Positions 10,482-25,999 of a stretch of DNA of 57,700 nucleotides are shown here, one piece after another. The stretch is taken from assembly GCF_000337035.1 (NCBI RefSeq), contig NZ_AOJL01000032.1, forward strand, positions 83,313 to 141,012, written 5' to 3'. Within the stretch, counting starts at the first letter, position 1. Every line of letters starts with the position of its first letter. The position numbers were made by a program, and so were the translations under genes. This stretch comes from Halorubrum coriense DSM 10284. Its GTDB lineage: Archaea > Halobacteriota > Halobacteria > Halobacteriales > Haloferacaceae. The notes below the pieces were generated by a model. It was not told the origin of the DNA, did not search any database, and worked only from the letters and a program-made list of their open reading frames with translations.

Positions 10482-11228
10482 TTAGAACACTAACTGCGTC
10501 TGCGCGGGGTGCCTGCTCTGCGCCGACTCGCCCGGACGGTCGTAATCGAGCGAATACGCACTGCCGGGGTTGTTGAGCGCGTCGTGTACGTTGGTGAGAC
10601 TCGCCTCAACACGTTCGTAATATCCGACGTCGTCGCCCGTGTCGAACCAACACCTTCGGTCGCGGGTGTGTGGTCCGAATTGCGTCGGAGCAAAAACATC
10701 GCCCATACTCGCACCCTTGAAGACTGCCGCGCCGTCCGCACTGTCGACACGATCGTGTAGGATTTTGATTGCTCGCAACTGAGTAATTGGAGAACCGCCG
10801 AGTAAATGAATTGAATCGCATCCATGGTAGTCCGTGATTTGATGCTCGTCGTCGCTCCCGAACGACGCGAGCGGGAGTCCGACTCTCCACTGTTCGGGGA
10901 CGTCCCCCGGGTGGATACTCTTCGGGACCACTATCACCTCATCGGCAAAGTCACTGAGCTCCCGCGCCTGCTCATACACGTCCTGCGCGTCTCGCCCGCG
11001 CTCGATGTCCGGTGCGACGGTGACCGCGGGCTCGATGCCCGCGACCGTCTCGCAGTGCTCATCGAATGATTGGTCCTCTTTGCTAAATGGATAATCGACG
11101 AATTCGATTCCCTCCGATTTGATTTGATGCTGGTTCTGTGACTCGATTCCCAGCTGCGCATCTGACCGTTTGACCGCCTCGCTCGCCTCGCTGCCGCCGT
11201 TCACTGTCGCAAAAACATCGAGGGTCAC
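10482..11228 (-). CDS. Possible TGT-like (DpdA/tRNA-guanine transglycosylase fold) protein
   Basis: This 248-aa protein is of a kind found in haloarchaeal viruses and plasmids (from memory the DUF6610 group). Visible features are a strand-helix pattern (ADEVIVVPKSIHPGDVPEQW, then VGLPLASFG) and DSIHLLGGSPITQL, which resembles the HLLG-type loop of TGT-like TIM barrels. If correct, it would act on a modified guanine base in DNA or tRNA. The zinc cluster of canonical TGT is not seen. The start is GTG at 11228, overlapping the stop of the wHTH gene (GTGA). A perfect ACACGATCGTGT (10747-10758) lies inside. The fold assignment is an inference of modest certainty. Confidence 0.6.
   Translation of the reverse strand: MTLDVFATVNGGSEASEAVKRSDAQLGIESQNQHQIKSEGIEFVDYPFSKEDQSFDEHCETVAGIEPAVTVAPDIERGRDAQDVYEQARELSDFADEVIVVPKSIHPGDVPEQWRVGLPLASFGSDDEHQITDYHGCDSIHLLGGSPITQLRAIKILHDRVDSADGAAVFKGASMGDVFAPTQFGPHTRDRRCWFDTGDDVGYYERVEASLTNVHDALNNPGSAYSLDYDRPGESAQSRHPAQTQLVF
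10747..10758. repeat. Element palindrome ACACGATCGTGT, copy 1
   Basis: A perfect 12-bp palindrome inside the 10482-11228 gene (encodes HDRV). No GTTGACAA is close by. Confidence 0.8.
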
Positions 11229-11389
11229 ACTTCTGCGACGTCGAACCCCCGGAGTCGGACGTCGTTAGACCGTTCCACACACGGATATATCGTTAGTAGC
11301 GGTATCTCGGTCCTATCTCGGAGCTCGTGAATAGTCATCGGACCGTCGTTGCGCACTACCTCCTCGATGAGCCGTCTCGTCGCGCTCAT
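11225..11389 (-). CDS. 54-aa winged-helix-like protein
   Basis: An ATG at 11389 overlaps the upstream stop (ATGA). The protein starts MSATRRLIEEVVRNDGPMTI and continues HELRDRTEIPLLTIYPCVER, a plausible three-helix wHTH (helix 1 LIEEVV, helix 2 TIHELRDRT, helix 3 PLLTIYPCVE). It ends GTGTGA, overlapping the next gene's GTG start. Probably a DNA-binding regulator within the 12088-10482 operon. Confidence 0.65.
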   Translation of the reverse strand: MSATRRLIEEVVRNDGPMTIHELRDRTEIPLLTIYPCVERSNDVRLRGFDVAEV

Positions 11390-11580
11390 CGACCCACCTC
11401 TATAAGTCCGGGTATGAGGGCTATAGTCACAGTCCCTACAAAAAAGGAACCCGCACTGAATGCGAGGGATTTCAGTAGCGGTATATCGCCTGTAAGTCCC
11501 AATACGCAGTAAATCAACGGCGTAAACATTACCACTGGGTGTGTAACTACCTCCCCGATGGGCTTCCGCGCCATGCTCAT
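11386..11580 (-). CDS. 64-aa two-pass membrane protein
   Basis: MSMARKPIGEVVTHPVVMFT starts a protein with two hydrophobic stretches (VVMFTPLIYCVLGL and SAGSFFVGTVTIALIPGL). ATG 11580 overlaps the upstream stop codon (ATGA), deciding among three closely spaced ATGs. Its place between zinc-finger and wHTH genes suggests a small accessory or regulatory membrane protein. No family recognised. Confidence 0.7.
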   Translation of the reverse strand: MSMARKPIGEVVTHPVVMFTPLIYCVLGLTGDIPLLKSLAFSAGSFFVGTVTIALIPGLIEVGR

Positions 11581-11894
11581 CGATACCACCTGAGAATTTG
11601 ATCTAGTATAGGTATTTGAATCGCCACTTCCACCTCCGAAAGGTCGATTTGTTCCATTTGCTCCTCATCCATCACGTCTGTATATTCCATCAGGCGGTCG
11701 AAATCACCTACTGAAGTGTCCGTAAATGGCACTTGGATGTTGAACCGGGTGTAACCACGGTGTCTTTCGCAGTGAGCATGAAGTGATCCGATGTTCGTCG
11801 ATATGTGATCACACTGCCGGCAGCGGTATATCTGTAATTCGTCATGCGGCTCGAACAGTTCTCTATACTCCTCGATGTCCATCGTCATCGTCAT
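11577..11894 (-). CDS. C2H2-type zinc-finger protein
   Basis: The 105-aa protein has a finger YRCRQCDHISTNIGSLHAHC followed by ERH (about residues 23-45), with Cys-X2-Cys and His spacing close to classic C2H2. The rest is acidic and helical. It overlaps both neighbours by 4 nt. Single C2H2 fingers of this type are common in haloarchaeal mobile elements and probably bind DNA. The 5' end has three repeated ATGAC(G) units (11880-11894); the first, overlapping the upstream stop, is taken as the start. Confidence 0.8.
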   Translation of the reverse strand: MTMTMDIEEYRELFEPHDELQIYRCRQCDHISTNIGSLHAHCERHRGYTRFNIQVPFTDTSVGDFDRLMEYTDVMDEEQMEQIDLSEVEVAIQIPILDQILRWYR

Positions 11895-12088
11895 CGACTC
11901 TCACCGGCAGAACCCTGCCCTTGCGCCGTCTCGCGTTCGCCTGCTGGCGCGGCACACTGTACGCACCACTCCTCTCCTCGCCCGCCCTCCACGGGCGTCC
12001 CGCACGTGCTACAGCGCTCTGTCTGTGCGTCGCCGTAGTTGTACGCATCAAGCGTGTCTGATCCGCCTGCGTGTTGTGGTTTCTCCAT
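11891..12088 (-). CDS. 65-aa zinc-ribbon protein heading the second early operon
   Basis: The sequence contains CSTCGTPVEGG and later CVQC (about residues 26-46), a double CxxC zinc ribbon like that of many small haloarchaeal proteins. It is the first gene of a five-gene operon ending at 10482. The shared promoter/operator lies immediately upstream, with the TATA-like box 25 nt from the ATG. Confidence 0.78.
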   Translation of the reverse strand: MEKPQHAGGSDTLDAYNYGDAQTERCSTCGTPVEGGRGEEWCVQCAAPAGERETAQGQGSAGESR

Positions 12089-12099
12089 ATATTCGGTAA

Positions 12100-12121
12100 G
12101 TGATCACAACCCATAAAACGG
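12100..12121 (-). promoter_or_regulatory. Shared promoter/operator, copy B (upstream of 12088)
   Basis: On the minus strand: CCGTTTTATGGGTTGTGATC then ACTTACCGA. The TATA-like TTTTAT is at 12113-12118 and the palindrome GTGATCAC at 12100-12107. It matches the 9941 promoter almost base for base over about 25 nt. Confidence 0.78.
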
Positions 12122-12225: not shown

Positions 12226-12264
12226 ACACGATCGTGTCGGTCGCCCGCCTGTCATCGTTGACAA
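12226..12264. repeat. Element palindrome ACACGATCGTGT, copy 2, with GTTGACAA (intergenic)
   Basis: The perfect palindrome at 12226-12237 and GTTGACAA at 12257-12264 lie in the 230-nt gap between 12121 and 12353. The same gap holds a strong GC-rich inverted repeat CCCCCGGGGACCCCCGGGG (about 12165-12183). No gene is evident in the gap. An in-frame continuation of the 12571 gene past its stop would encode the usual VVN...DTIV linker, so this may be a truncated coding end. Confidence 0.75.
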
Positions 12265-12571: not shown

Positions 12572-12579
12572 TGTAATCT

Positions 12580-13377: not shown

Positions 13378-13378
13378 G

Positions 13379-14755
13379 TTAGTTGACAACCTCGTTAGCG
13401 TCGTCCTCGCCGCCGCTGATTATCTGCTCCGCCATTCGCTCCGCCCGGTGTCGATTGACAACGTCGCCGACGTCTCCCGGGCTGTCTGCTTGCAGTGCGG
13501 CGGCGATGAGGGCTTCATCGTCGTCGTCGCCCTCTCGCTCACCGGTCACTGCCTGTGTCGCTTTCAACACGCCCGCAAGACCTTCGAGCGGGGTCGCGCG
13601 CCGGGCGTCGTCCGTCACATCACCATCATCGTCGTCGCTACTGTCCGTTAATCGCGGATCCGGATCGCCATTCCACTGGTGTCGATGAGTTTGGCAGTAT
13701 CCGCTTTCGTGGGTGACGTGCGTCGTCCCGCAGCGCTCGCCGCGCTTGTTCGTCCCTCGGCACTTCACCCGCCGGTCCTCGCCCGTTCCGTCGGGGTCAT
13801 CGGCGTCATCGCGGTCCTGGTACTGCTGCCAATCCTCGATGAGCTTCCCTCGCCGAATCTGCTCTCTCGGAGAGTCCAAATCCGGTTCGAAGTACGCAAA
13901 GTAATTCGTATCGGCTCCCCAGATACTGGCGTCATCGACGTCCTGTAGCCCTCTAAGGGTGAATTCCTCGTCGCCGGTGACGTAGTCATCCCACCCGGCA
14001 TAGATGTGCGCACGATCGGCGAGACCGTCGTCGGCTTTGCCGGCCTTCTCGATGACAACATCGCTCTGCGTGCGGAGGATTGAGGCGATGTCCGTGTCGT
14101 GCTCGTGCCCGACTATCATGAGGCGGGTCGAACCCCCTCGACCCTTGCGTAAGGCGTTAATGAAGCGGCTCACGGTCTGTCGGACGTCGCCCCCAGGATG
14201 CGCGTTGGCATTCATCGTCGTGGACCACTCGTCGCCGATCACCAATTTCTCGCCGGGGGTGTCACGCACCCACTCAAGCATCTCCGACATGGTCTCCACG
14301 AACGTGACCGCGGGGTGTTCATCGGGTCCTTTGATGTTGGTGGCGATTTCGAGATCGCCGTCAAACTCCGCGTACAACCTCTTAGCGGCGTCCAACACAA
14401 ATACGGTCTTGCCGCTCCCCTTCGGGCCTTTAACGAGTATCTGCTGCGCGGCGGGGGTGAGGCGGTTGACAAGTAAGTCGTAGCCCGTCGCCTCGACAGA
14501 GCTCTCCCCGAGCCCTGTCGCCGCGTTCAAGGTCGGAGCATGCCCCTGCTTGCGGGCTTTCCTGAGCGTGTGCGACGTCGATGCCCGGGATAGGAGCGCG
14601 TACAAGGGGCTCCCCTCGTCGTCGATGCCCGCTCTCTCCGCGGCGAGCATCATGTTCGCCACGGGGTGCTCGTCACTGAGCACTGAGTCGATATTAGCGT
14701 CAATCTCTCCCCCTCGAATCTCGTCTGCCGTTTTGGCTGTCTGATAGTCTGACAT
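13379..14755 (-). CDS. P-loop NTPase, VP8-like of pleolipoviruses
   Basis: The 458-aa cytosolic ATPase has Walker A VKGPKGSGKT (about 109-118), a Walker B-like VIGDEWSTT (about 173-181) and a following LMIVGHEHDTD strand resembling sensor/motif III of the FtsK-HerA or DNA-packaging type. A C-terminal metal-binding knuckle CRGTNKRGERCG...GYCQTH (about 328-352) and a long acidic tail with two GD/EVVN linker sequences follow. Its position after the membrane protein matches VP8 of pleolipoviruses. The start overlaps the upstream stop (TGATG). It probably energises genome loading or particle budding. Confidence 0.8.
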   Translation of the reverse strand: MSDYQTAKTADEIRGGEIDANIDSVLSDEHPVANMMLAAERAGIDDEGSPLYALLSRASTSHTLRKARKQGHAPTLNAATGLGESSVEATGYDLLVNRLTPAAQQILVKGPKGSGKTVFVLDAAKRLYAEFDGDLEIATNIKGPDEHPAVTFVETMSEMLEWVRDTPGEKLVIGDEWSTTMNANAHPGGDVRQTVSRFINALRKGRGGSTRLMIVGHEHDTDIASILRTQSDVVIEKAGKADDGLADRAHIYAGWDDYVTGDEEFTLRGLQDVDDASIWGADTNYFAYFEPDLDSPREQIRRGKLIEDWQQYQDRDDADDPDGTGEDRRVKCRGTNKRGERCGTTHVTHESGYCQTHRHQWNGDPDPRLTDSSDDDDGDVTDDARRATPLEGLAGVLKATQAVTGEREGDDDDEALIAAALQADSPGDVGDVVNRHRAERMAEQIISGGEDDANEVVN

Positions 14756-16260
14756 CAGTTGTCGTCCTCCTTGTCGTCGTCCTCGTCCCCGTCGCGCGGG
14801 TCGATGAGGTCGGCGAGACCGCCCTCGTCGTCGCTCTCGTCGTCCTCATCGGTGTCTGTGTACTGCCCTTCGAAGCGCGTGCCCTGGCTCGCGCGGTCTA
14901 AGAGCCCATCAATCGCCCCGCTGTCGACGGTCGCCATCTGCCGGAGCTCCTTGTCTACAGCTGCCATCGCCTGCGTGTCGCTCGATGTGGCGATTGCTGG
15001 CAGCGCACCCACCAACGTTCTAAACATCCGCGACTCGTCGCGGAGTATCTCCTTGTTGGCGTCAATCTTCGAGCGCTCGGCGATGATCTCTGCGTCGTTC
15101 GCAGTGCCAACCCAACACCCACGGGCGACGTTCCTCTGTGGGTCGAATTCGTTGACAATCACGGCCCGCCCGCCGGGCACCCTGATCTCTGCGGGCTCCC
15201 CATCGACATTCATCTGACTCACACGATCGGGGCTGCCAGAGTATATCGCAGTGATTGTCGCGTCCTCGATGCCTTCGAGTTTGTCTGCGACGTCGTCGAT
15301 GTCGTCTGCCGCCTCGATGCGCGCGAGCCCGCCGTCGGCTCCGATGCCTGCATCGAGCACGTCGCGGTCATCGAGCTCTAAGACGAATTCCGTGGCGGGG
15401 TCCCAGAGACGGTCTAGCACGACGTACGCGGGAATGAATCCGAACACGATGAGCGCCAGCGTACTCGCCGCGAAGACCCTCTGCACGTCGTTGAGGGTGT
15501 CCCAAAACGACGCGGGCGACGGAACGACACCCACACGAACTGCGAGCAAGTACGCCAGAATACCGGCGATAGCGACGAGCGCGATACGGTGATTCGAAAA
15601 CCACCTTTTCACACTCCCCCAGAATCCTGCGACAGGGTTAGATTCGACAGATATCCGCTCTTCCGACGTGAGCTCTTTGTAGGTGTTTTCGTGTTTTCGC
15701 TTCTTCATTCCCGCGCCGAATGCACTGGCGAGCAACACGCCGAACCCACCGCCGAGCGCGCCACTCTGTACGGTTTGCGTATCGGCGGGGTTCGTGATTA
15801 TATCGATGAGCGCGCGGTCACCGGAGTCGGCGAACATGACCCCACCTTGTTGGATGGTTATGAGCTCGTCGTCGCCGCGGAGCGGGAGTCGGAGCTCATA
15901 GACGCCCTCTCCCTTCGAGTAAGACTGAAAGCTCACACGCGCGCCGTCATCGCTCCCTAAACCTTTGACCGCGCCCGAGTCGGTCAGTGTGACGGTGGAA
16001 GGCTCATTGTACCGCGCCGTCACGATCGCCGTCGAATTACGGTATTCGACCGAGGCGATGTCGACTGAGTCAAGCTGGTACTCGATACTCTCGATGTCCT
16101 CGCCCGGCGCATCGACCGCGGTCGAATTCGGAGCTGGCGATGTGGACTGTGCCGCGCCGAGCCCCGCAGCCATGCCGAGCCCGAGCCCGATCGTGACGAT
16201 GACGACGCTGAATATCGCCACGTATCGCATGATCTCAGCGTACGTCCACCCGCGTCTCAT
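14755..16260 (-). CDS. Multi-TM membrane protein, ORF7-like of pleolipoviruses
   Basis: The 501-aa protein has an N-terminal signal/anchor (residues 11-38, YVAIFSVVIVTIGLGLGMAA) and a beta-rich extracellular domain (45-160). A glycine-rich hydrophobic segment follows (LGGGFGVLLASAFGAGM). Then come two or three further TM helices (ALVAIAGILAYLLAV, VFAASTLALIVFGFIPAY) and a cytosolic domain of about 220 residues with an acidic tail. Pleolipovirus ORF7 occupies the same position between the small hydrophobic ORF6 and the VP8 NTPase. It probably links the spike layer to the NTPase. Family equivalence is inferred from order and topology. Confidence 0.75.
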   Translation of the reverse strand: MRRGWTYAEIMRYVAIFSVVIVTIGLGLGMAAGLGAAQSTSPAPNSTAVDAPGEDIESIEYQLDSVDIASVEYRNSTAIVTARYNEPSTVTLTDSGAVKGLGSDDGARVSFQSYSKGEGVYELRLPLRGDDELITIQQGGVMFADSGDRALIDIITNPADTQTVQSGALGGGFGVLLASAFGAGMKKRKHENTYKELTSEERISVESNPVAGFWGSVKRWFSNHRIALVAIAGILAYLLAVRVGVVPSPASFWDTLNDVQRVFAASTLALIVFGFIPAYVVLDRLWDPATEFVLELDDRDVLDAGIGADGGLARIEAADDIDDVADKLEGIEDATITAIYSGSPDRVSQMNVDGEPAEIRVPGGRAVIVNEFDPQRNVARGCWVGTANDAEIIAERSKIDANKEILRDESRMFRTLVGALPAIATSSDTQAMAAVDKELRQMATVDSGAIDGLLDRASQGTRFEGQYTDTDEDDESDDEGGLADLIDPRDGDEDDDKEDDN

Positions 16261-16343
16261 GCCGTCACCCCCGGGGTATGGGCCGACTCAATCGGTATTG
16301 TCAATCCTCGCAATCCGTCGCCGTCGTGTGTGTTGTGTCTCAT
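16257..16343 (-). CDS. Possible 28-aa peptide coupled to the membrane-protein gene
   Basis: ATG 16343 opens a 28-codon frame (MRHNTHDGDGLRGLTIPIES and on) whose stop TGA overlaps the ATG of the 501-aa gene (ATGA). The overlap is the pattern used by neighbouring genes, which argues for translation. It has no domain and could act simply as a leader that couples translation. Confidence 0.4.
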   Translation of the reverse strand: MRHNTHDGDGLRGLTIPIESAHTPGVTA

Positions 16344-16367
16344 TGTGAAATGGGTGCGTGAGTGTGG

Positions 16368-16526
16368 TTAGAAGCCTACCAACGACCGGGCGAGCCCATC
16401 GAGGAGCCCCGCGTCACCGAGGAGCACAAGCACCCCGAGCCCGAGCGCCCCGAGGAACACGAGGCGGACTGCGAGCCCGATTACACTCGTGTACAGCCCG
16501 ATTGGTGTGAGCGCCAACTCAATCAC
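16368..16526 (-). CDS. 52-aa hydrophobic membrane protein, ORF6-like
   Basis: GTG 16526 overlaps the stop of the spike gene (GTGATTGA). The protein starts MIELALTPIGLYTSVIGLAV and continues RLVFLGALGLGVLVLLGD: two membrane helices joined by a short turn. Size, hydrophobicity and position right after the spike gene match ORF6 of pleolipoviruses. A longer frame starting at 16607 was rejected because it lies inside the spike gene and gives an Arg/Ser-rich leader. Confidence 0.7.
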   Translation of the reverse strand: MIELALTPIGLYTSVIGLAVRLVFLGALGLGVLVLLGDAGLLDGLARSLVGF

Positions 16527-18438
16527 CCCCGAGCCCGAGCGCGGCGATAGTCGCTGCGAGCCCGCCCCCGAGCGCGTACACGAGCGCGTTATCGCCGAGC
16601 GGCCCACCGCCGCCCGCCGCTCCGCCGCCCGAGCTCCCGTCGTCGATGATGATCCTGTCGTAATCCTCCGCGGCGTCCTGCCGCCGGTCGTAGAGGTCCT
16701 GTAGGTCGAAGTTATTCAGCGTCTCCGGCGCGTACGTGCGTATCGGTAAGAGCGGCAGAGACTCGCCCTCTGCCGTCTCGAACGCCTCGATGACGAATGC
16801 ATCCGCTGCATCGAGCGACCGCGAGCCGTCCTTGTCGTGGATGTTGATGTTCCCAACCGCCTCAGAGTCCGCATCGTACGCCTTGCCGACGATGAGCCCA
16901 CCCACCTCCGCGGGTAGTTCTGTCTCGCTGTCGTTGACAAGTTCGCTCGTGTCGATTTGCTCGCCGGTGTTTTGCACGACCGGGTAGGACTCTGTGTACC
17001 GGTCGTCAGCCTCCATCGAGTCCGTGATGTCGGCGGCATTGGTCGATTTGTACACTGCGACCGTCGCTGGCCCGTCCGCCGCATACCGCCCCTGCGACAG
17101 TTCGAAGTAGCGCGTATACGCGGCGTCGCCGGTAATCGCCCAATCCTCGCCCGCCTCGGTGAGCATCCCGCCCGGGGTTCGGTTTTTGGGGTCCTCGATT
17201 TCATCTGGGTCGATGTTCGCATAGTGGTTCGTGACGAATTCCTCGATTTCAGTCTCGATTGTATCGACGAGAGTGACGAATTCGTCATAGAGCGCATTAA
17301 CGTCGTCTAGACCCCATTTGCCCTGAGTATCGAATACATCAGATTGACTGGGGTATGTCAGATCGAGGTGTATTTTTGATTGCCCCGGCGGTTCGTAGTT
17401 TAGGAATAGTGTGTGGTTGGGATATCCCTCACTCCCGTAGGTACCCTCGCTCCATAGGTCCATATCTGGGAATAGATCGTGACCCGTGTTCTGATGTGCG
17501 AGCATCAGCGGCACAAGCTGCCAACTGCCGTTGGCCTTCGTTTGGATGTTCATGTGCTCAATCTCAATTGTCTCGCCGTTCACGAGGGTCAACTCGCCGG
17601 TTAGCGTAGTGTTGAGTGATTGAATCCCCCAATCATCGGCAGTATGATTCGAATAATTCAGCCCGTAGTAGTTTGCGGGCTGCCAGTTGTCGTCGCCCGC
17701 TTGCGCGGTCATATGCCAGCCCCAATCTCCGGTTAAGCGGATTCCTAGCTGCTCACACGTACGAGCGTAGTTCTCTTGCCAGATTGCGATGCGGTCGTAT
17801 GCCGCCTGCCGGACGTGTCCAATCGCCTGCTGCTCGCCCATCTGCTCGCGTCGCGCTTCCACCGTGGCGACTTCGATGATATTGTATAGTATCGCGTACA
17901 GATCATCGAGGTCCATCATCACCGTTATCAGGTCGTTAAACGTCTGATACGACCCCTTCATGTCGTAGTAAACCTCGTTGTCGACGACCTGAGCATTCGG
18001 GGATTTGGTTTCCACCTCGAAGGGTCCGAAAATGTACTCTTGCATGTAGTCGACAGTGGTGTGGTCCGGGTCCGTCGCACCCGCCACTGCCGCGGACAAG
18101 ACGCCGAGCGGGCTCGCGGTGTATGCGATACCGAGAGACTCCTTCTGCGTCGGCGTCTGAGCGGCGTAAATGCCGTTGTCCGTAGCGATGTAGTTCCTGA
18201 TCTCCTCGCTGCTCTCGAAGCGATCCGTGTCCGTCTCATTTTGCGCGGCGACCGTCCCCGCCCCCCCGCTCCCGAGCGCTCCGACCGCCGCCGTGCCAAC
18301 CGCCGCCCGCTTCATGAACCCCCGGCGCGACGTCCCGCTCACACGATCGCTACCGATCGTGTCGCTGTCGTCACTGCCGTCGTTGACAATATCGTTACCA
18401 TCGCCGTCTGCGTGTTGTGTGTTGTTTTCGTCTGACAT
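16519..18438 (-). CDS. Tat-exported spike-like surface protein (VP4-like)
   Basis: This 639-aa protein has a twin-arginine signal SRRGFMKRAAVGTAAVGALG (Arg38-Arg39; cleavage expected near VAAQ at about 66). A large ectodomain follows with several Asn-X-Ser/Thr sites, a heptad-like region near the C-terminus (FDLQDLYDRRQDAAEDYDRI), a Gly/Ser-rich spacer and one C-terminal membrane helix (ALVYALGGGLAATIAALGLG). Single-anchor spikes with a membrane-proximal coiled coil are typical of pleolipovirus VP4, and Tat signals are known in that group. The n-region is unusually long and carries the linker DIVNDGSDDSDTIGSDRV, whose DNA holds both element motifs. ATG 18438 was chosen over a TTG three bases upstream. 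Confidence 0.82.
   Translation of the reverse strand: MSDENNTQHADGDGNDIVNDGSDDSDTIGSDRVSGTSRRGFMKRAAVGTAAVGALGSGGAGTVAAQNETDTDRFESSEEIRNYIATDNGIYAAQTPTQKESLGIAYTASPLGVLSAAVAGATDPDHTTVDYMQEYIFGPFEVETKSPNAQVVDNEVYYDMKGSYQTFNDLITVMMDLDDLYAILYNIIEVATVEARREQMGEQQAIGHVRQAAYDRIAIWQENYARTCEQLGIRLTGDWGWHMTAQAGDDNWQPANYYGLNYSNHTADDWGIQSLNTTLTGELTLVNGETIEIEHMNIQTKANGSWQLVPLMLAHQNTGHDLFPDMDLWSEGTYGSEGYPNHTLFLNYEPPGQSKIHLDLTYPSQSDVFDTQGKWGLDDVNALYDEFVTLVDTIETEIEEFVTNHYANIDPDEIEDPKNRTPGGMLTEAGEDWAITGDAAYTRYFELSQGRYAADGPATVAVYKSTNAADITDSMEADDRYTESYPVVQNTGEQIDTSELVNDSETELPAEVGGLIVGKAYDADSEAVGNINIHDKDGSRSLDAADAFVIEAFETAEGESLPLLPIRTYAPETLNNFDLQDLYDRRQDAAEDYDRIIIDDGSSGGGAAGGGGPLGDNALVYALGGGLAATIAALGLGGD
18341..18389. 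repeat. Split element palindrome plus GTTGACAA in the spike n-region
   Basis: ACACGATCG and CGATCGTGT (18341-18362) are separated by CTAC, so the palindrome is split by 4 nt. GTTGACAA follows at 18382-18389, 19 nt further on. The left half plus CTAC also occurs at 7893-7905. Confidence 0.7.
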
Positions 18439-18472
18439 CAAAAATCACCGTTTCACGGGTGTCTGCGGGTTG

Positions 18473-19330
18473 TTACTCTGCCTTTGCTGCGAGTCCGAGG
18501 AACGCAAGCACTGCGAGGACACCGCCGATAAAGACGGGGTCCGTCGCTGGCGAATCAGCCGGTAGCGATATTGCGCCCGCGAGAGCGCCCTCCTCCTGCA
18601 CCGTCAGGGTCGCCGGCTCGGAGTTGTACTCGCCCCAACTAACACCGACGTCGTACTCGTCGCCGATCGTGACGTTACCATCGATGTCCGACTCGTTGAT
18701 CTCGAATTCAACGGAGCCGGTCTCCCCGGCGCTAACGTTGACGGGGTCAACGGTGTCGGTGTACACCATGTTACCGTCGGCGTCGGCGACAGTGATCTCT
18801 GCGGGCCCCGAGTAGGATGACCCGTCCGTCGCTGCGAGGTCCGCCGAGAACATCGTTGAGCCGTTTTTCACGATCGTGTCGTTCGAGACCCCGGACACGC
18901 TCGGCTCCGCGGGCGGCTCCTCGACCGTCAGACTCGTCCGCTCTGCCGTGCCGTTGACGTTGGCGTCGAGGTCGTAGTCACCCGGAGACAGGCCCTCCTC
19001 GGACGGATTGAGCTCGAAGGACACCGTCTCGCTCGAATCCGCAGCTGGGCTTACGGTCTTACTGAGCGAGGTGACCGCCTCGCCGTTCTGCACGACAACT
19101 AGGTCCACCGGTTGGTCAGTGAGTCCGTCCGCGTCGGCTGTCACAGTGACATCGACAGTCGTCGCACTTCCGTCTGTCACCGCCGTATACCCGCTGCCGT
19201 CATCATTAGCGAACTGTACGCCCGACGTCCCCGCCGCGGCCATGCCGACCCCCAAGCCGGAGAGGAGCACGGCTCCCGCAAAGACGAGAGCCATGACCAC
19301 CGTCATCGAGTCGCCGATATCTCGGAACAC
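18473..19330 (-). CDS. Secreted Ig-like surface protein with C-terminal anchor
   Basis: The 285-aa protein has an N-terminal signal/anchor (TVVMALVFAGAVLLSGLGVG), two beta-sandwich domains of CARDB/Ig-like type (about 45-140 and 145-245; repeated pattern VSAGETGSVEFEI and PAADSSETVSFEL) and a C-terminal helix (PVFIGGVLAVLAFLGLAAKA). It is rich in Thr, Ser and Asp and probably decorates the virion or cell surface beside the spike. The start is GTG 19330, three bases after the upstream stop. Pleolipoviruses normally lack such a protein at this position, so it is a notable addition. Confidence 0.75.
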   Translation of the reverse strand: MFRDIGDSMTVVMALVFAGAVLLSGLGVGMAAAGTSGVQFANDDGSGYTAVTDGSATTVDVTVTADADGLTDQPVDLVVVQNGEAVTSLSKTVSPAADSSETVSFELNPSEEGLSPGDYDLDANVNGTAERTSLTVEEPPAEPSVSGVSNDTIVKNGSTMFSADLAATDGSSYSGPAEITVADADGNMVYTDTVDPVNVSAGETGSVEFEINESDIDGNVTIGDEYDVGVSWGEYNSEPATLTVQEEGALAGAISLPADSPATDPVFIGGVLAVLAFLGLAAKAE

Positions 19331-19333
19331 GAT

Positions 19334-19522
19334 TTACTCCGTGATACCCGCCTTATCGGCAAGGTCGTAGGCCCCGATCCCAAACAAGAGCGTGGCGAAT
19401 ACGATTCCCAGCTCCGGGCCGGCGATATCCAAGAGCCCGTAGCCAAACGCAGCTGGCAACCACATAATCGAGCCAGCAGAGTTGAGCGCGGTCTTGGCGA
19501 GATCAACTGGTGACATTGACAT
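19334..19522 (-). CDS. 62-aa membrane protein, first gene of the structural operon (VP3-like?)
   Basis: MSMSPVDLAKTALNSAGSIM is followed by two hydrophobic stretches (WLPAAFGYGLLDIAG and LGIVFATLLFGIGAYDLA). VP3, the internal membrane protein of pleolipoviruses, lies upstream of the spike gene but usually has four TM helices; this protein is half that size. It could be a reduced VP3. Start at ATG 19522; another ATG is two codons downstream. Confidence 0.6.
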   Translation of the reverse strand: MSMSPVDLAKTALNSAGSIMWLPAAFGYGLLDIAGPELGIVFATLLFGIGAYDLADKAGITE

Positions 19523-19813: not shown

Positions 19814-20245
19814 CTACGCCTCTTGCTTGTGGTCCGCCTGAGAGCCGCCAGCAGACGCGCCAGCGTATTCCGTCAGTGTGGATTGGTGGTTGGTCGTCTG
19901 AGCCCCCGACGAGCTCTGCGACCGGGCGGGGGACGGGTCGGACGATGTTGTCAATTCATCGCGGGCGAATACCGGACGAGACATGTCGACTCCGTGCCGT
20001 TCACTCATGTACTCGGCCAGCCGCTCTGTCGAACGATATCGCCCGTCATCGAGGCGGACGAGGAGCCCCGCGTCGCGGAGCGCGATACCGATGCTCGGGT
20101 CGGCGACCCCGCGCCCGTGCCGGGCGACGAAGACGTCTGACCACCGCCACGCGTCCGCCTCAGGCGCGGGTATGAGCTCGATGTCGCTCACATACCACGC
20201 GATTTTACTCTTGATCTTCCGTGGGATTGTCTCTGTGCGTGTCAT
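19814..20245 (-). CDS. Hypothetical protein coupled to the helicase gene
   Basis: The 143-aa protein starts MTRTETIPRKIKSKIAWYVS, overlapping the helicase stop (ATGA). Residues 25-85 (WRWSDVFVARHGRGVADPS, ALRDAGLLVRLDDGRYRST) have a wHTH-like helix-helix-wing pattern. The C-terminal 50 residues are Ser/Thr/Gln-rich and probably disordered. It may help the helicase at the origin. It converges with the AbrB-like gene, with 4 nt between them. Confidence 0.65.
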   Translation of the reverse strand: MTRTETIPRKIKSKIAWYVSDIELIPAPEADAWRWSDVFVARHGRGVADPSIGIALRDAGLLVRLDDGRYRSTERLAEYMSERHGVDMSRPVFARDELTTSSDPSPARSQSSSGAQTTNHQSTLTEYAGASAGGSQADHKQEA

Positions 20246-23200
20246 TCCGCCACCTCACCGGTTTCGACTGTAAACAGCTCGTCCTCCGCTGGGTGCTCGA
20301 TGAGCGTCCCGGAGCGTCGCAGGGCCTGTATCGCTGCCTCGACATCGTCCTCGTCCGCCGCGGGCGATTCACTACCGCGGAAATCGTACATTAGCGACGA
20401 CATGTGAGCGCGCGGCTTGATTGCGCCCCTGCCTGCCATCTTGTTCAGACGTTGTGACACGATCTCTACTATCTCGTCACTCACACGATCGTGTGAGTCG
20501 ACGTCCGTGTCGTCGTCGTTGTCGCCTTTGACAATGATATCTCCGCGGTTCTTGAGCTTCTCAATCCGGCCTTTAATCACGTGTAAGTTGTCGGTATCGA
20601 CGTCTGCGCTCACCTCGCCAGCAATCGCCGCGAGCGACTTCTCGCCGCTATCGTCGCTGGCGTCGATTATCGCCTCATCGAGCTCTTCCATATCGGTCTC
20701 CTCGTCACGATCGTGTGAGTCGACGTCGCTGGCGGCGTTGACAACATCGTCGCCGCCGTCGTCATCGTCGTCATCGAGGTCGTTCTGGTCGTCATCCGTC
20801 CCGCGCTCGATGCGTGTCACGTCCGACATTCCCGGGATTAATTGGAGTTTGGTCTCGCCGTCCTCTTCGAGCGCGGCGACGTCGCGGATGACGTACCACT
20901 CTCCCTCTTCGAGAGAGATCCCGGGCGCTTGCACGTAGTATCGGATAGTGTCCTCGTCGTCGCGGAGCACACCCTCCTCATGCCGCCCGTAGGACGTCTT
21001 CCCCGTCGATGAGGTGACCTTTACCTTCACACCCTCGCGTCGCCCGAGCTCGGTGTCCTCTCGAATCTCTTTGAGTGTCTCCCGAGCGGGTCCGCCTTCA
21101 CCCTCATCGCTGGCGTCGACGTAATAGTGCTTTATCGACTCAGGCACCCATGCATCGAGTGCCTTCTCGCTGAACCCAACCCCAAGGTATCTCGTCGGTC
21201 GTCCATCGAACGGATTATCGCGCGAGCGGTCACGTACGACCGGGTACTGCGGCATCTCAGAGATGTAGTCATACAGGTCCGAGAGCTGTTTGCCGGCGTG
21301 GTCTTTCGCTTCTGCAAACCCGTCGAACGCTGTCTTGAGGTGCTGCGCTTTGATACCGTGCTCGTCGTCTGGCGCGGGGACAAGCGCGTTTCGCGCAAAG
21401 TCGTGTGCCGGGTCGGAGAACGACTCATACTGGTTAATGCGCTCCTGACGAGACCGTTTGTCCGTGATCCCCGGCTCGCCGCCCCCGTCATCGTGGAGTA
21501 GTCGCACGAGCCCATCGAGTCCGAGGTATAGCATCGCCTTGAGGCGTTCCTCAGCGCGCAATTCCTCCTCGACAACCGTCTTACCCCGCTCTTGGAGCTG
21601 TAGCGGGTCGTTCGGGTCCGGGTCGGGTACGTAGCTCGCCGGGAATTCGATAGGATGGAAGCGTCGCCCCAGCGCGTCCCCGTCCTGGTCTGAGGGGAAG
21701 CGTGGCGGGGAGTCGCTCGCAAAAATCATCGTCGCGTCGTTGTAACTGTTATACGCATTTTCTCTCTTCAGCTCGACTTCCGTCTCCTCGCCGGACGAAT
21801 ACGCCTTTAACGTATCTATCGATTTGATTTGCTCGCCACTAAGCTCGGTGCTGATGTTCATCCTCATCTCGGGGATCGGTTTCCCAGCCGCGAAGTCCGC
21901 GCTTTCGATCTGCTGTAGCGTCCGCACGCCGACGTTATCGCCCCCAATCATCTTCTTAATCACCTCTAGCACCTGCGATTTACCACTGCCGCCGGTCCCG
22001 ACCGCGATCGCAAATGCGTCTGTAGGATACCCAGGATACAGCGCGTGTCCGACCAATTCATAGAGCACTGAACGCTCGTTCTGCGTGCGAATTATGTCCT
22101 TGAGCCACGACCTGACGGCGTCGATATCGGCGTTCTCAGGGTCCCATTCGGTCTGTATCCGGTAAAGGAAATAGTTGTCCGGGTCCATATCTTCGACCAC
22201 AACACTATCGGGGTCGATGTGCACGCGGCCCTCGTCGTCTGTTCCATCGAGCTCGATTTCATCGACGTTTATCGTCCCATTAGCGACTGGGATTAGTGTG
22301 TCATCGGTGTCCCCGCCGTTCACTTCGTCCTGCGAGATATAGTTGCGCCGGGCGAGTTGACTCCTGTAATGCCCGTCCTCGGTATCTGTGGCTTTGCTCC
22401 CGAGCTCTCGCGCGGTGATCTCAGAGATATACGTCGATGCATCATCTTGCCACCCCTCGTCCTCGTCCCACCGATGTAGGGCGTAGTGGTTGCCGGGCTC
22501 CGAGCGTTCACGGATAGCTACCCATTCCGTCTCTTCTTGTAGCGCATCGACAACGCTGTCGCGGGCATCCGCACGCGTGATCGGCGACGACTGCAGCCGC
22601 GCCTCCGCATAGCGGGAGGCGGCGCGCCGCCAGGGGTCATGTTCGTCGTCGTCATCGTCATCCTCGCCGTCGTCTCTGGCGTCTGCTCGAATAAGCGGGT
22701 CCGCGTGCCCGTCAACATACTCCGAGCTCACATCGAGCTCGATTTCACACCCGCCACCGTGCGCGTCGCTAATCTCACTCACAGTGCCGATCGTGTCGGT
22801 GACGAACGTGTCGCCGGGCTCCCCGCCCGTCTCCGACTCGATTAACGCCCCCACAGCGACGCCGTCTAACGCCTCGCTCGCCCCTGAGTAGGTGTCTCGA
22901 TGCATTCGCACGTCTTCGAGCACTTCATTCATCCCGCTAACACCGGGACGTCGAACCTCAGGCTTCTCATCGCTTGCGACACTTAGGTCGAATGTCCACT
23001 CCCAATCGTCGTCCCCCATACCCGTCTGGTGGGTGTATACGCGGATAACGAGGTCGTGTTTGCGGAGCACCCGGGCGTCGCGGTCGTTGAGGTCCTCGAT
23101 GTCCTCCTTAGTGATATCGATATCAACATCGTCGGGCTCTCCGCGTCTGTTTATCGCATTTTCGACGTCGTCCGCGGAGGCGTCCGGGTGCGAGCGACCG

Positions 23201-23709
23201 AAGTGTGTCTTCGCTCCGTGCGCGCTCTTCACGACAGCCTCGCAAATCGTGCACATCCACTTCCCTTCCTTGTTGTGCTCAAAACGGGATTTGAGGGGGC
23301 GAGCGGTCGCCACTCGGAGGTCGTCCGAGTTTCGAATGTATCCGTCGTCGTCGTTGGGGCCGTCCCCGTCGTCCGTGTCGTTGACAACATCGTCGCCGTC
23401 CGCCTCACCGCGCGCCCGAATCTTCTCCGCTTCCTCGTCGCTGAGAGCGTCCTCCTCGACGTTGTTCACACGATCGTGTGAGTCGACGTCCGTGTCGCCG
23501 TCGTCATCGTCGGGAGTATCGGGATGTTCGCTGTATCGATCCGCGAGCGCGTCGTCCTCCGCGCCCGGTATCTCGACCCCCGAAAAGTCTGTATCGACGT
23601 CCTCGACGTCGTCCGCGGGCTCGCCGCCGTCCGTCATCAACCGATTCGCATCCGCAAATGCGTCGATGGTAGCCTGCTCTGTGCTCGTGTTCGTGTGGTA
23701 TCGTGACAT
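20242..23709 (-). CDS. Zinc-finger SF3/D5-like replicative helicase
   Basis: This 1155-aa protein is the likely replication protein. The acidic N-terminus (1-145) carries linker repeats DVDSHDRV and DVVN. A zinc finger CTICEAVVKSAHGAKTHFGR with a final SH lies at about 151-172. The middle contains a D5-like helicase with Walker A AVGTGGSGKS (about 565-575), the sensor-like IFASDSPPRF and GRRFHPIEFP. The C-terminal third holds wHTH-like segments separated by further linkers (DVVNAASDVDSHDRDEETD; DTDVDSHDRVSDEIVEIV). No clear primase active site was found, though the N-terminal third could hide one. The candidate origin lies upstream. Pleolipoviruses normally use Rep, RepA-like or PolB proteins, so this is unusual. 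Confidence 0.85.
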   Translation of the reverse strand: MSRYHTNTSTEQATIDAFADANRLMTDGGEPADDVEDVDTDFSGVEIPGAEDDALADRYSEHPDTPDDDDGDTDVDSHDRVNNVEEDALSDEEAEKIRARGEADGDDVVNDTDDGDGPNDDDGYIRNSDDLRVATARPLKSRFEHNKEGKWMCTICEAVVKSAHGAKTHFGRSHPDASADDVENAINRRGEPDDVDIDITKEDIEDLNDRDARVLRKHDLVIRVYTHQTGMGDDDWEWTFDLSVASDEKPEVRRPGVSGMNEVLEDVRMHRDTYSGASEALDGVAVGALIESETGGEPGDTFVTDTIGTVSEISDAHGGGCEIELDVSSEYVDGHADPLIRADARDDGEDDDDDDEHDPWRRAASRYAEARLQSSPITRADARDSVVDALQEETEWVAIRERSEPGNHYALHRWDEDEGWQDDASTYISEITARELGSKATDTEDGHYRSQLARRNYISQDEVNGGDTDDTLIPVANGTINVDEIELDGTDDEGRVHIDPDSVVVEDMDPDNYFLYRIQTEWDPENADIDAVRSWLKDIIRTQNERSVLYELVGHALYPGYPTDAFAIAVGTGGSGKSQVLEVIKKMIGGDNVGVRTLQQIESADFAAGKPIPEMRMNISTELSGEQIKSIDTLKAYSSGEETEVELKRENAYNSYNDATMIFASDSPPRFPSDQDGDALGRRFHPIEFPASYVPDPDPNDPLQLQERGKTVVEEELRAEERLKAMLYLGLDGLVRLLHDDGGGEPGITDKRSRQERINQYESFSDPAHDFARNALVPAPDDEHGIKAQHLKTAFDGFAEAKDHAGKQLSDLYDYISEMPQYPVVRDRSRDNPFDGRPTRYLGVGFSEKALDAWVPESIKHYYVDASDEGEGGPARETLKEIREDTELGRREGVKVKVTSSTGKTSYGRHEEGVLRDDEDTIRYYVQAPGISLEEGEWYVIRDVAALEEDGETKLQLIPGMSDVTRIERGTDDDQNDLDDDDDDGGDDVVNAASDVDSHDRDEETDMEELDEAIIDASDDSGEKSLAAIAGEVSADVDTDNLHVIKGRIEKLKNRGDIIVKGDNDDDTDVDSHDRVSDEIVEIVSQRLNKMAGRGAIKPRAHMSSLMYDFRGSESPAADEDDVEAAIQALRRSGTLIEHPAEDELFTVETGEVAE
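20483..20534. repeat. Element palindrome ACACGATCGTGT, copy 3 (18-bp version)
   Basis: CTCACACGATCGTGTGAG at 20480-20497 is a perfect 18-bp palindrome. The block 20482-20512 recurs at 23467-23497 in the same gene, with identical flanks through GAGTCGACGTCCGTGTCG. TTTGACAA follows at 20527-20534. Confidence 0.85.
20705..20744. repeat. Element palindrome (one mismatch) plus GTTGACAA
   Basis: TCACGATCGTGT at 20705-20716 is followed by GAGTCGACGTC, as in copies 3 and 4. GTTGACAA is at 20737-20744, 20 nt downstream. Confidence 0.75.
23468..23497. repeat. Element palindrome ACACGATCGTGT, copy 4
   Basis: The perfect palindrome at 23468-23479 has the same downstream sequence as copy 3. A separate GTTGACAA lies at 23380-23387, on the other side from the usual arrangement. 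Confidence 0.85.
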
Positions 23710-23987
23710 TAGATATCGCCTCCGTCTGCCGCTAATTCGTTCTCTTCCACGGACTCGTCGATTGCCCGAGCGCCAGCTGGGCTTTGCGCAATTACAGCTA
23801 CATTGCTCAGGGGAATTTTGACATCGATTCCCCCGTCTCGCTCGTCGATATGCAGCCCGAGCGTCTGCTCGCTCGGGTTGATTACGTGATTCACCGCGTC
23901 GTATGTCTGATTATCGCGCGTTTCGACTCGTGCTGGCTTCAGAGTGAAGCCATCCGTTTTATCAGCGTTCGTATCGTAGTCTTGCAT
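23709..23987 (-). CDS. 92-aa protein preceding the helicase
   Basis: MQDYDTNADKTDGFTLKPAR starts an acidic beta-rich protein (TLGLHIDERDGGIDVKIPLS). Its stop overlaps the helicase start (TAATG), so the two are co-translated. No domain is recognised. It may be a helicase partner or origin-binding protein. ATG 23987 is preferred to one four codons upstream; the evidence between them is weak. Confidence 0.65.
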   Translation of the reverse strand: MQDYDTNADKTDGFTLKPARVETRDNQTYDAVNHVINPSEQTLGLHIDERDGGIDVKIPLSNVAVIAQSPAGARAIDESVEENELAADGGDI

Positions 23988-24028
23988 GGGGTGCGGCACA
24001 CCTCTCAGGGCGACGCGTTGATGGCGCG

Positions 24029-24101
24029 TCGTCCACTTGTGGACGATTCACTGACGCCCCGAGCGGTGCTTATCTCACCCTATCTTTGCCTTACGTATAA
24101 A
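24029..24101 (-). promoter_or_regulatory. Promoter and palindrome upstream of the replication operon
   Basis: TCGTCCACTTGTGGACGA (24029-24046) has 8-bp arms and contains GTGGAC, the core of the origin repeats. On the minus strand TTTATACG (24094-24101) is a TATA-like box that would place the transcript start near 24070, with the palindrome in the 5' leader. Autoregulation by the protein that binds the origin repeats is possible. Confidence 0.55.
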
Positions 24102-24142
24102 ACCTCGTCAGCAATCTTCTATTCTTACTCTAATGTAACGCT

Positions 24143-24166
24143 ATATTCGATCAGATGATCGAATAT
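24143..24166. promoter_or_regulatory. Perfect inverted repeat overlapping an AT-rich promoter-like region
   Basis: ATATTCGATC and GATCGAATAT flank AGAT, giving 10-bp arms with a 4-nt loop. It is directly followed by ATTTATAAAC (TATA-like). It looks like an operator dimer site; the gene controlled is not clear because no good frame starts nearby on the plus strand. Confidence 0.6.
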
Positions 24167-24301
24167 TTATAAACCTCCGTGTGGCGCGGTTGCAACCACA
24201 CACTGAGAGTTACCCGACTACAACTACAGCAAAGTTTGGCGGCGACGCGCGGGCGTCCGCACCTCACCGGCGACCGCCTCGGTCCCGGTCGAATTCGAAC
24301 A

Positions 24302-24618
24302 GGTGGACAGGCCGGACAACCCATTTTGAAAACGCCTGTCCACCCTTTAGGACAGATAGAGGGCCTATACCGTCTGTTTTTAGAGGGTGGACAACCGGAC
24401 AGGCTGTTTGGGGAAACTCAGGATAAAGTTGGTAAAAGCTTTGTTTATAGATAAAGCATGTCGCAATAATACTTTTAGCTTTTACAACCTGCTGTGTGGC
24501 TAATATCGCCATTTCGCCTGTCCGGTTGTCCACCCCCAATATTCGAAGCTTACAGGGCTCAGTACTGCCGATATCGGTGGACAGGGGGATTTGGGGGTGC
24601 CTGTCCACCGTTGTCCGG
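24302..24618. other. Candidate replication origin of the element
   Basis: A gene-free region contains nested copies of GGTGGACA. GGTGGACAGG is at 24302-24311, its inverse GCCTGTCCACC at 24334-24344. GGGTGGACAACCGGACAGGC is at 24385-24404, with its perfect 20-bp inverse at 24516-24535. GGTGGACAGG is at 24576-24585 and GCCTGTCCACC at 24599-24609. CCGGACAAC/TTGTCCGG half-sites lie at 24312-24320 and 24611-24618. Between the 20-bp arms is about 110 nt of AT-rich sequence (24405-24515) with TAAA/TTTATAGATAAA runs, a plausible unwinding element. The helicase operon lies immediately to the left. Confidence 0.78.
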
Positions 24619-24710
24619 GGCAGTGCCCGCGCGTCACCCGCCGGTCTTTGCGGTTGGCGGTGCGACGCGGCGCGACGTCAACTCCGACAACCGTGACAAC
24701 CACACGATTC

Positions 24711-24753
24711 ACACGATCGTGTCGGAGCGGTCGCTCCTCGATGGGATTGACAA
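24711..24753. repeat. Element palindrome ACACGATCGTGT, copy 5 (intergenic, beside the origin)
   Basis: The perfect palindrome at 24711-24722 is followed by ATTGACAA at 24746-24753. It lies between the origin repeats and the 3' end of the HTH gene. Confidence 0.8.
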
Positions 24754-24769
24754 GAAAAGAGCCGGCGGC

Positions 24770-25471
24770 CTACTGCTGGGGGATATCGAAGAGGTCGGGT
24801 CGCTTGTTGATTGTGTTTGTGATTGTGCGCCGCGTACAGCCAATCTGCCGCGACGCCTCGCTCTTCGACAAGTCATCAAACACGACTCGATGAATCAACT
24901 CACGGACGTCGTGGTAATTGTCGCCCTTGACGAGCTGTCCATCGATGACTTCGGTCGCAACCGGGGGGCGGCCTCCCGACCACTGCTCTTTGAGTATCTC
25001 GTCGTCGTTGCGGGTCGTCTTGCGCGTTTTGACCGCTGCCATAGTCCGATGTATAGTCTCGGGCGACGCGCCTCGTTCGATGGTGATCCGCTTCGAAGCG
25101 ATTGTGAGCTTATCGACTTTCCTGAGATATTCGTAGGCTTGTGATGCCTGTATTATGTGGGGCTTAGCGTCTGCGACTATCATCTCGCCCACACCCTGAC
25201 CGAACGCGGTCGACATAACCTCGCCTGCTGTCTCCCCGTCCCGGTCGATGTCCAACCGCTCTGCGACGAAACGGATGTCTGGTTTGTCGTCGTCCGCGAT
25301 TGGGACATTGACCGCTGCGGACCGCTTGAGTCGGCGGAGATGGTCCGCCTTGCCACCCTCGCCTAATGACTTGTCTGTACGGTGCTCGATGAGCTCCACA
25401 CACTGCTCGTATTGCTCTGCTATCATCTCGTCGCTGCTCCCTGTCAGATATACCAGCGTCTCCTGCGCCAT
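24770..25471 (-). CDS. HTH-containing DNA-binding protein between origin and integrase
   Basis: The 233-aa protein starts MAQETLVYLTGSSDEMIAEQ. The N-terminal two thirds are helical and charged with no recognised fold. A C-terminal helix-turn-helix (about 195-225, FDDLSKSEASRQIGCTRRTI then TNTINKRP) is of the resolvase/HTH_23 kind. It is monocistronic, with gene-free regions on both sides. Position suggests an origin-binding, partition or excision-control protein. ATG 25471 lies behind TACATATCCATAATC, which may include the promoter. Confidence 0.7.
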   Translation of the reverse strand: MAQETLVYLTGSSDEMIAEQYEQCVELIEHRTDKSLGEGGKADHLRRLKRSAAVNVPIADDDKPDIRFVAERLDIDRDGETAGEVMSTAFGQGVGEMIVADAKPHIIQASQAYEYLRKVDKLTIASKRITIERGASPETIHRTMAAVKTRKTTRNDDEILKEQWSGGRPPVATEVIDGQLVKGDNYHDVRELIHRVVFDDLSKSEASRQIGCTRRTITNTINKRPDLFDIPQQ

Positions 25472-25481
25472 ACATATCCAT

Positions 25482-25999
25482 AATCTTGGATCGGTAAAAA
25501 CGGTGGGAGATACTCGACGCCCGGGGTGGGATAATTGTGTGAGATTCTATTTTTGATGGTTGAGATTTACAAGTTTCTTCCGCCGCGTTTCTAAGAGTCT
25601 TTTAGAGTTTCTAAGAGTTTTTCAAGTGGCGGATTGGGTATCTCACATGGATTATCGCCCCCGATTTCGTCCTAAGATGTGTACTGGTGTCGGACGGGAT
25701 TTACCCACCCAAAGAGACACTCACGCGCCGTTGGGCTTCGGGGGTTGCGTGCGCGGCTGGGGGCGAGAGCGCTCGCCTCCTACACGATCGTGTTGGGTGC
25801 GACTACAACTACAAATTTTGGGAGGGGGTGGTTCCGGAATTCCCTCACAGAGCACACCCGGTTTTATGAGATATCGGAGACTAGTATCTGATAGGACTCG
25901 GGTCGCACCCTTGCCTCTGTGGCTGGGTCCGACCCGCGAGCACGTGCGGTCATAGCGCACGTGCGATGACGTCCATCGACTCAACCACTGTAGTTACAA
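25482..25999. other. Gene-free region upstream of the HTH gene and behind the integrase
   Basis: No credible gene is seen in 518 nt. The region holds two copies of TTTCTAAGAGT (about 25589-25617) around a CTTTTAGAG. It also holds a perfect ACACGATCGTGT (25782-25793), CGACTACAACTACA (about 25799-25812, also at 24216-24229), two GCACGTGC palindromes (about 25939-25965) and TGTAGTTACAACTACA (about 25988-26003) overlapping the integrase stop. Clustered short repeats next to an integrase fit arm-type sites for integrase or an excision factor. Confidence 0.55.
25782..25793. repeat. Element palindrome ACACGATCGTGT, copy 6 (intergenic)
   Basis: A perfect copy in the gene-free region behind the integrase. 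No GTTGACAA is adjacent; a CGACTACAACTACA repeat follows within 10 nt. Confidence 0.8.

Follow-up and report, generated by a model that had tools for sequence, protein, structure and literature searches.

Cluster A mycobacteriophages carry more than 20 stoperators, asymmetric sites oriented with transcription, at which a repressor is proposed to stop both initiation and elongation; a single element-encoded repressor binds them, and site and repressor diverge together (PMC9283540, PMC6550527). A short motif of another kind, GCCCA, is found at single-strand interruptions and is repeated over the genomes of the betapleolipoviruses HRPV-3, SNJ2 and HHPV4 (PMC5867852). P4-like primase, integrase and invertase genes have been recorded in the proposed genus Epsilonpleolipovirus, for which the host could not be identified (PMC10599561). 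How archaeal proviruses and integrated islands stay silent or become immune is poorly understood, and no archaeal system of dispersed silencer sites was found in the literature searched. Here, a 20.45-kb element is described that is integrated in a tRNA-Leu gene of Halorubrum coriense DSM 10284, within a stretch of 57,700 nucleotides (NCBI RefSeq assembly GCF_000337035.1, contig NZ_AOJL01000032.1, positions 83,313 to 141,012) that is called the window throughout.

The element carries a short palindrome and an oriented partner word, TTGACAA. The motifs are selected at the DNA level, occur in pairs, are conserved in four elements with unlike cargo and, among comparable genes, covary with a 233-aa protein. 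The palindromes are tentatively read as dispersed operators that would be bound by this protein and would control or silence the whole element.

Results

The element (window 6638-27120) contains six exact copies of the palindrome ACACGATCGTGT and nine of its core CACGATCGTG (Table 1). A second-order Markov model gave an expectation of 0.006 and 0.084 copies, respectively, in 20.8 kb. The core is absent from the window outside the element. A sequence-only reading of the same stretch had listed the exact and near-copies and had seen none in the flanking chromosome; all of its coordinates were reproduced, as was the empty flank. The genome-wide count that it proposed gave a host density near zero, with one exact ACACGATCGTGT in the remaining 3.65-Mb genome (C26:67242) besides a scatter of one-mismatch copies. 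The genes around C26:67242 have no relatives among the element genes, and this copy was taken as chance.

Motif-bearing elements were also found in three further Halorubrum genomes, namely L027 (genome G155), L032 (G143) and G125. In an unbiased scan for inverted repeats, CACGATCGTG or a 12-mer containing it came first among the palindromes of each of the four elements (log10 p of about -15, -9.7, -7 to -8 and -13). Among 29 other regions, one repeat of similar strength was found in L113 and a GC-rich repeat at -7.1 in L036, the rest being weaker. In the split copy at 18341, the arms are 12 instead of 2 bp apart, which is exactly one helical turn (10 bp) longer, and a near-identical spaced form occurs at G125rc 36403. 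When arm spacing was scanned over the four elements, an excess was observed at 2 bp (31 vs 4.4 expected) and a small one at 12 bp (8 vs 3.9). The arms ACACG/CGTGT spaced by 4 bp were likewise in excess (13 vs 3.8).

The partner word that the sequence-only reading had placed downstream on the plus strand in at least six places was indeed found at six of the ten palindromes of the window. It is better defined as TTGACAA, starting 26-44 nt after the palindrome start; the form GTTGACAA is present in about half of the cases. On the plus strand of the element TTGACAA occurs 14 times (0.89 expected) and TTGTCAA twice (1.27 expected), and the 37.4 kb of flank contain no TTGACAA. Over the four elements, 37 copies lie on the plus strand, opposite to most genes (4.5 expected), and 7 are reversed, which is about the chance level. 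With the proteins held constant, coding-strand TTGTCAA was found at 13 vs 1.3, 9 vs 0.8, 3 vs 0.3 and 8 vs 3.1 copies in the four elements, and coding-strand TTGACAA was at chance in each. Nine palindromes are followed by a TTGACAA starting 15-55 nt downstream on the plus strand (0.68 expected, reached in none of 2000 randomisations); at the same distance upstream there is no case in the four elements. Nearly all genes of the element run leftward. From the orientation and pairing of the word it follows that a polymerase on these genes meets TTGACAA first and the palindrome second. The half-sites, the lone TTGACAA copies, the strand orientation, the lengthening of the split copy by exactly 10 bp and its recurrence in another element go beyond what the sequence-only reading had noticed.

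In order to separate DNA from protein constraints, synonymous codons were permuted within each gene, so that all proteins and the codon usage were retained. In-gene CACGATCGTG was observed six times in the window element against a mean of 0.30, and TTGWCAA 14 times against a mean of 2.0; neither count was reached in 1000 shuffles. For CACGATCGTG in the relatives, the values were 3 vs 0.11 in L027 (0/500), 2 vs 0.11 in L032 (4/500) and 5 vs 0.31 in G125 (0/500). The contrast between 6 observed and 0.3 expected copies means that selection on the motifs acts at the DNA level. It had been suggested from the letters that the motif, present both between genes and in coding linkers, has a DNA function that leaves its mark on the proteins, and the shuffles bear this out. 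All five HDR peptides of the element are written CAC GAT CGT and most (V/I/L)VN peptides NTT GTC AAY, while sites are also found between genes and in other reading frames. The C-terminal extension EIVNDGDDAHDRVGGER of the serine recombinase holds both TTGACAA and a palindrome, and the recombinase of the motif-free element G124, 72% identical, does not have this extension. The DNA sites thus shape the proteins: they are followed by the linker peptides, by the choice of codons and, in one protein, by a C-terminal extension. No case was seen in which the motif was lost and the linker peptides were kept: the HDR peptides are also absent from the primases of G106 and G124 and from the G124 recombinase. 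In the N-terminal part of the primase-helicases of L027 (55-3204) and L032 (1159-5031), a repeated peptide ELVTDGG and related linkers were observed, and the L027 linkers hold the palindrome variants TCACGACCGTGT and ACACGATCTTGT. The L027 linker counterpart (1335) of the 23468 site likewise carries CACGATCGTG.

Relatives of the 233-aa protein were sought in 392 and then in 391 genomes, the two sets overlapping. Close full-length relatives occur only in the four motif-bearing elements (profile E ≤1e-98, the next match being at 1e-26). Among comparable genes, only these full-length relatives track the palindrome; relatives that share the integrase (72%), the primase (43%) or the serine recombinase (72%) occur without it. 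Sites flank the 233-aa gene in all four elements, at about 40-85 bp past the stop codon, followed there by the common sequence TTGACAAGAAA(A/G)GAGC, and at 284-348 bp upstream of the start. An AlphaFold2 model built from a 12-sequence alignment had a pLDDT of 85. Its best solved matches were phiC31 integrase (Z 9.5 over 124 residues), a phage serine recombinase (Z 9.4 over 191) and gamma-delta/Hin (Z 8.0 over 103), and folds other than serine recombinase matched at Z below 6. The C-terminal helix-turn-helix (HTH) matches the window's own serine recombinase (profile comparison, E 1.4e-4). At the Y-x-R-x-S motif, the four family members read YLTGS, YLSGS, YITAT and WVNGL. As read from the alignment, the catalytic Arg and the SRxxR-type motif are missing in all four and the Ser in two. 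Since the catalytic residues are lost, the protein should not cut DNA and is predicted not to be an active recombinase.

Each of the four elements has the integrase and the 233-aa protein, together with a relative of the 96-aa protein that is weak in L027, and tRNA-Leu tracts of the same gene lie beside the integrase in all of them and in G106. The 143-aa protein is present in three, the L027 contig ending before its position. The next gene is the same endonuclease III-like one in the window, in L027 and in G125. The replication genes differ: the L027 primase is 73% identical to that of the window and the L032 one about 28%, and G125 gave no match. None of the pleolipovirus structural genes of the window is present in the G125 element (about 38.5 kb), which holds a serine recombinase relative with 67% identity. 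Within its island (L096/L097, about 2.30-2.34 Mb), with the same tRNA-Leu and integrase module, genes that look, from a reading of their sequences, TGT-like and QueC/QueD/QueE-like were observed, which suggests a 7-deazaguanine DNA-modification system. The palindrome is absent in 50 kb of G106, which shares with the window the integrase (72%), the 96-aa protein (49%), the primase (43%) and the 143-aa protein (33%), its match to the 233-aa protein being at HTH level only. It is also absent in 40 kb of G124, which shares the serine recombinase (72%) and the primase (38%).

Further members were sought among viral contigs with the primase, the 233-aa protein, its alignment, the paired motif and the conserved 16-mer, and none was found; the paired-motif matches were taken as chance because each has one palindrome, and the 16-mer matches because they have none. 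A contig scan with the paired motif gave 27 matches, of which the elements of Halorubrum yunnanense Q85 and Halorubrum sp. GN11_10-6_MGM were the sole haloarchaeal ones, both of them known by then; the remainder were set aside as chance, judged by taxonomy. A tblastn search of phage records for relatives of the 233-aa, spike-like and ATPase proteins was negative, as was a search of plasmids for the 233-aa protein. The pattern CTCACACGATCGTGTGAG was too specific as a family marker, the window's own copy being the sole match in 170 family genomes. The idea that each diverged HTH relative has an element-wide palindrome of its own was not supported in 22 other regions, except for the repeat in L113 (G463:C1). 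This 25-bp inverted repeat, GATAGAC-N11-GTCTATC, occurs at 2601, 7919 and 9944, one copy lying roughly 20 bp beyond the stop of a serine recombinase gene that seems intact, and it is more likely a recombination site of that recombinase.

The element is bounded by a 29-bp exact direct repeat of tRNA-Leu, beside the tyrosine integrase. Its structural block matches the betapleolipovirus HRPV-3, with PHROGs 1979 (ORF5), 1938/5952 (ORF3/ORF4) and 2231 (VP2); the families 2231, 1938, 5952 and 1979 stand in the same order as the HRPV-3 spike, ORF3, ORF4 and ATPase genes. On the basis of these shared families and gene order, the element is classed as a pleolipovirus-like provirus. It resembles an Epsilonpleolipovirus provirus in Halorubrum, with large spike-like and ORF6-like proteins, a P4-type primase, an integrase and an invertase-like recombinase. 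In the spike-like protein, a twin-arginine-type signal SRRGFMK lies about 38 residues in, and the acidic N-terminal stretch before it carries TTGACAA as well as the palindrome in its spaced form. A non-coding, repeat-rich segment with GGACAGG/CGGACAACC-type repeats (24000-24700) separates the 233-aa gene from the 96-aa gene and is a candidate replication origin. Repeats of ACTACAAC near the integrase (window 24217 and 25802; L027 5145; L032 5521 and 7040) are possible integrase arm-binding sites. Rfam gave no match within the element.

Table 1. Motif sites and genes of the element, in window coordinates
Feature	Position	Strand	Remarks
attL, 29-bp tRNA-Leu segment GGACCCCTACGGGATAGCGTCCTAAGCGC	6638..6666		left end of element; exact repeat of 27092-27120
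TTGACAA	7128..7134	+	further copies start at 8634, 12258, 13383, 13455, 14466, 15152, 16934, 18383, 20528, 20738, 23381, 24747 and 26406; no palindrome close before 7128, 13383, 13455, 14466, 15152, 16934 and 26406
Half-site ACACGATCG(CTAC)	7894..7902	+	66 bp upstream of the 7517-7828 gene
Other half-sites ACACGATCG	9626, 15221, 22788, 26479
Serine recombinase	8591..9367	-	N-terminal region retains residues expected of an active enzyme (YVRSST, SRLSR)
Palindrome ACACGATCGTGC, one mismatch	8607..8618		in C-terminal extension of serine recombinase gene, 18 nt upstream of methyltransferase start; TTGACAA at 8634
Palindrome ACACGATCGTGT, exact	10747..10758		inside DUF6610 gene
Palindrome, exact	12226..12237		intergenic; TTGACAA at 12258
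Pleolipovirus-like structural block	13379..19522	-	ATPase 13379-14755, ORF6/7-like 14755-16260, spike-like 16519-18441
285-aa secreted and 62-aa membrane proteins	within 13379..19522	-	assigned to the block by position only
Spaced palindrome ACACGATCG-CTAC-CGATCGTGT (+10 bp)	18341..18362		5' end of spike-like gene; TTGACAA at 18383
Palindrome TCACGATCGTGT, one mismatch	18868..18879		in 285-aa secreted-protein gene; different reading frame (TIV)
143-aa protein	19814..20245	-	possible second DNA-binding factor
P4-type primase-helicase, 1155 aa	20242..23709	-
Palindrome, exact, 18-bp form CTCACACGATCGTGTGAG	20483..20494		3' part of primase-helicase gene; TTGACAA at 20528
Palindrome TCACGATCGTGT, one mismatch	20705..20716		primase-helicase linker; TTGACAA at 20738
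Palindrome, exact	23468..23479		N-terminal linker of primase-helicase gene; preceded by TTGACAA at 23381
96-aa protein	23709..23999	-	no assigned function; in the same module
Palindrome, exact	24711..24722		48 bp from stop codon of 233-aa gene; TTGACAAGAAAAGAGC at 24747; kept in all four elements
233-aa protein	24770..25471	-	serine-recombinase fold, catalytic residues lost, C-terminal HTH; proposed palindrome reader
Palindrome, exact	25782..25793		between integrase and 233-aa gene, about 311 bp upstream of 233-aa gene start
Tyrosine integrase	26000..27046	-	about 70% identity to integrases of motif-bearing relatives and G106
attR, inside tRNA-Leu (27066-27151, minus strand)	27092..27120		right end of element; exact 29-bp repeat

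Discussion

Element-wide silencing is favoured because the sites are dispersed, have a directional component, stand beside the gene of the candidate reader and precede most gene blocks or lie inside them. The palindrome (core CACGATCGTG, usually ACACGATCGTGT) would be the binding site of an element-encoded protein, with half-sites that may sit one helical turn further apart, and copies planted over the whole element would allow one protein to control everything. The 233-aa protein is the most likely reader; it would probably bind as a dimer and silence the integrated element. A site before a gene would block initiation, and sites inside genes may block elongation or be bridged over a distance. 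TTGACAA would make the effect directional, either as the site of a second factor or as an RNA signal, UUGUCAA. The same system may also provide immunity. From the list of roles given by the sequence-only reading, operators and an immunity mark are the best supported, and recombinase sites, packaging and GATC methylation are disfavoured.

Several observations speak against silencing through the 233-aa protein. Most sites lie inside genes, and few are near predicted starts. Wherever it can be followed, the 143-aa protein (with a poor model, pLDDT 56) tracks the motif as well and could be the reader instead. G106 encodes a diverged 233-aa relative with a similar recognition helix and has no palindrome; specificity is not proven by sequence. 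The 12-bp palindrome is also shorter than the usual dimer site of serine recombinases, and the covariation was seen in four elements from a single genus, of which two lie on partial contigs.

Serine recombinases act as dimers on palindromic sites and as tetramers that pair distant sites, a habit that would suit a silencer bridging its sites. The fuller proposal is that a dead serine recombinase was turned into an element-wide DNA-bridging silencer that reads the oriented word and a palindrome set even into coding linkers, a stoperator-like immunity and dormancy system that would travel between a pleolipovirus-like provirus and a DNA-modification island. It is a possible but rather doubtful elaboration.

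Phage N15 has scattered centromere sites. By analogy, the main rival of the operator explanation, though an unlikely one, is that the palindromes are dispersed centromere sites for an element-encoded binding protein and keep the excised or replicating element in both daughter cells. They are indeed spread over the element and selected at the DNA level, dispersed sites of this kind need no promoters, and the replication genes and the repeat-rich non-coding region near 24.0-24.7 kb suggest that the element may exist extrachromosomally. Integrated elements, however, segregate with the chromosome, and a second word with a fixed strand relative to transcription is not obviously needed. Moreover, none of the proteins common to the four elements was recognised as a ParA-like NTPase, in a scan that did not take in every small gene.

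The strongly one-directional TTGACAA (37 vs 7) could instead mark the strand that is to be primed, nicked, translocated or packaged, and the palindrome would then be an auxiliary site for binding. This is unlikely to a somewhat greater degree. The window element has pleolipovirus-like structural genes, and in betapleolipoviruses a motif is found at nicks or single-strand gaps (PMC5867852), which like the present one is short and repeated over the genomes of related elements. Its sequence is different, and GCCCA is rarer in the element than expected (13 copies vs 30.7, and 5 vs 31.3 for the reverse); therefore, the present motif is not the betapleolipovirus one. Both motifs also occur in G125 without the structural genes, which in addition disfavours a packaging site. 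Some motif-bearing elements have unrelated or very diverged replication proteins, whereas G106, with a primase of 43% identity, is motif-free.

It is improbable that the palindromes are targets of the intact serine recombinase, for inversion or resolution. Such enzymes bind palindromes, the 3' end of the gene holds a site and its relative in G125 accompanies the motif, but G124 has a relative with 72% identity and no palindrome, and recombination among ten sites on a short element, many inside genes, would delete or invert it. Still less credit is given to methylation-controlled operators, in which the GATC at the palindrome centre would be modified by the element's 159-aa methyltransferase and binding thereby switched. 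The methyltransferase gene starts 18 nt from a palindrome, but G125, the second motif-bearing element recovered in full, has no detectable relative of it, and GATC, a common word in the host, shows no enrichment in the element (74 copies, 72 expected). That HDRV and DVVN are peptide motifs of acidic linkers, alike in DNA through shared linker ancestry, is scarcely credible: most in-gene copies are in the same frame (HDRV, [VIL]VN) and the helicase linkers are repetitive, but synonymous shuffling retains the peptides and loses the motif, copies lie between genes and in other frames, and the spaced and palindromic forms make no sense at the protein level.

As this family comes in four natural variants and offers a candidate reader besides a defined site and its partner word, the question of silencing becomes directly testable. 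It is also a clear case of a DNA-level function forcing peptides onto proteins.

Compared with the proposed genus Epsilonpleolipovirus of the Pleolipoviridae, the element has the same block of spike, ORF6/ORF7-like and ATPase genes, with large spike and ORF6-like proteins. It differs in being a provirus in Halorubrum, whose motif module is also found in G125 without that block. With serine resolvases and integrases such as gamma-delta resolvase and phiC31 integrase, the 233-aa protein shares the predicted fold, an N-terminal recombinase-like domain followed by a C-terminal HTH; the four family members differ from them in the loss of the catalytic residues. The closest functional likeness is to the stoperators of L5 and TipsytheTRex. 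In both cases a short site is dispersed over a mobile genome in many copies, here far above chance, orientation follows transcription, and conserved sites lie beside the gene of the repressor or candidate repressor. In contrast to stoperators, the main site is here a symmetric palindrome and orientation is carried by a separate 7-bp word, many copies lie in coding sequence, the host is archaeal and the elements have unlike cargo. The system would work like stoperators, but it is not classed as one, as the candidate reader has a different, serine-recombinase fold.

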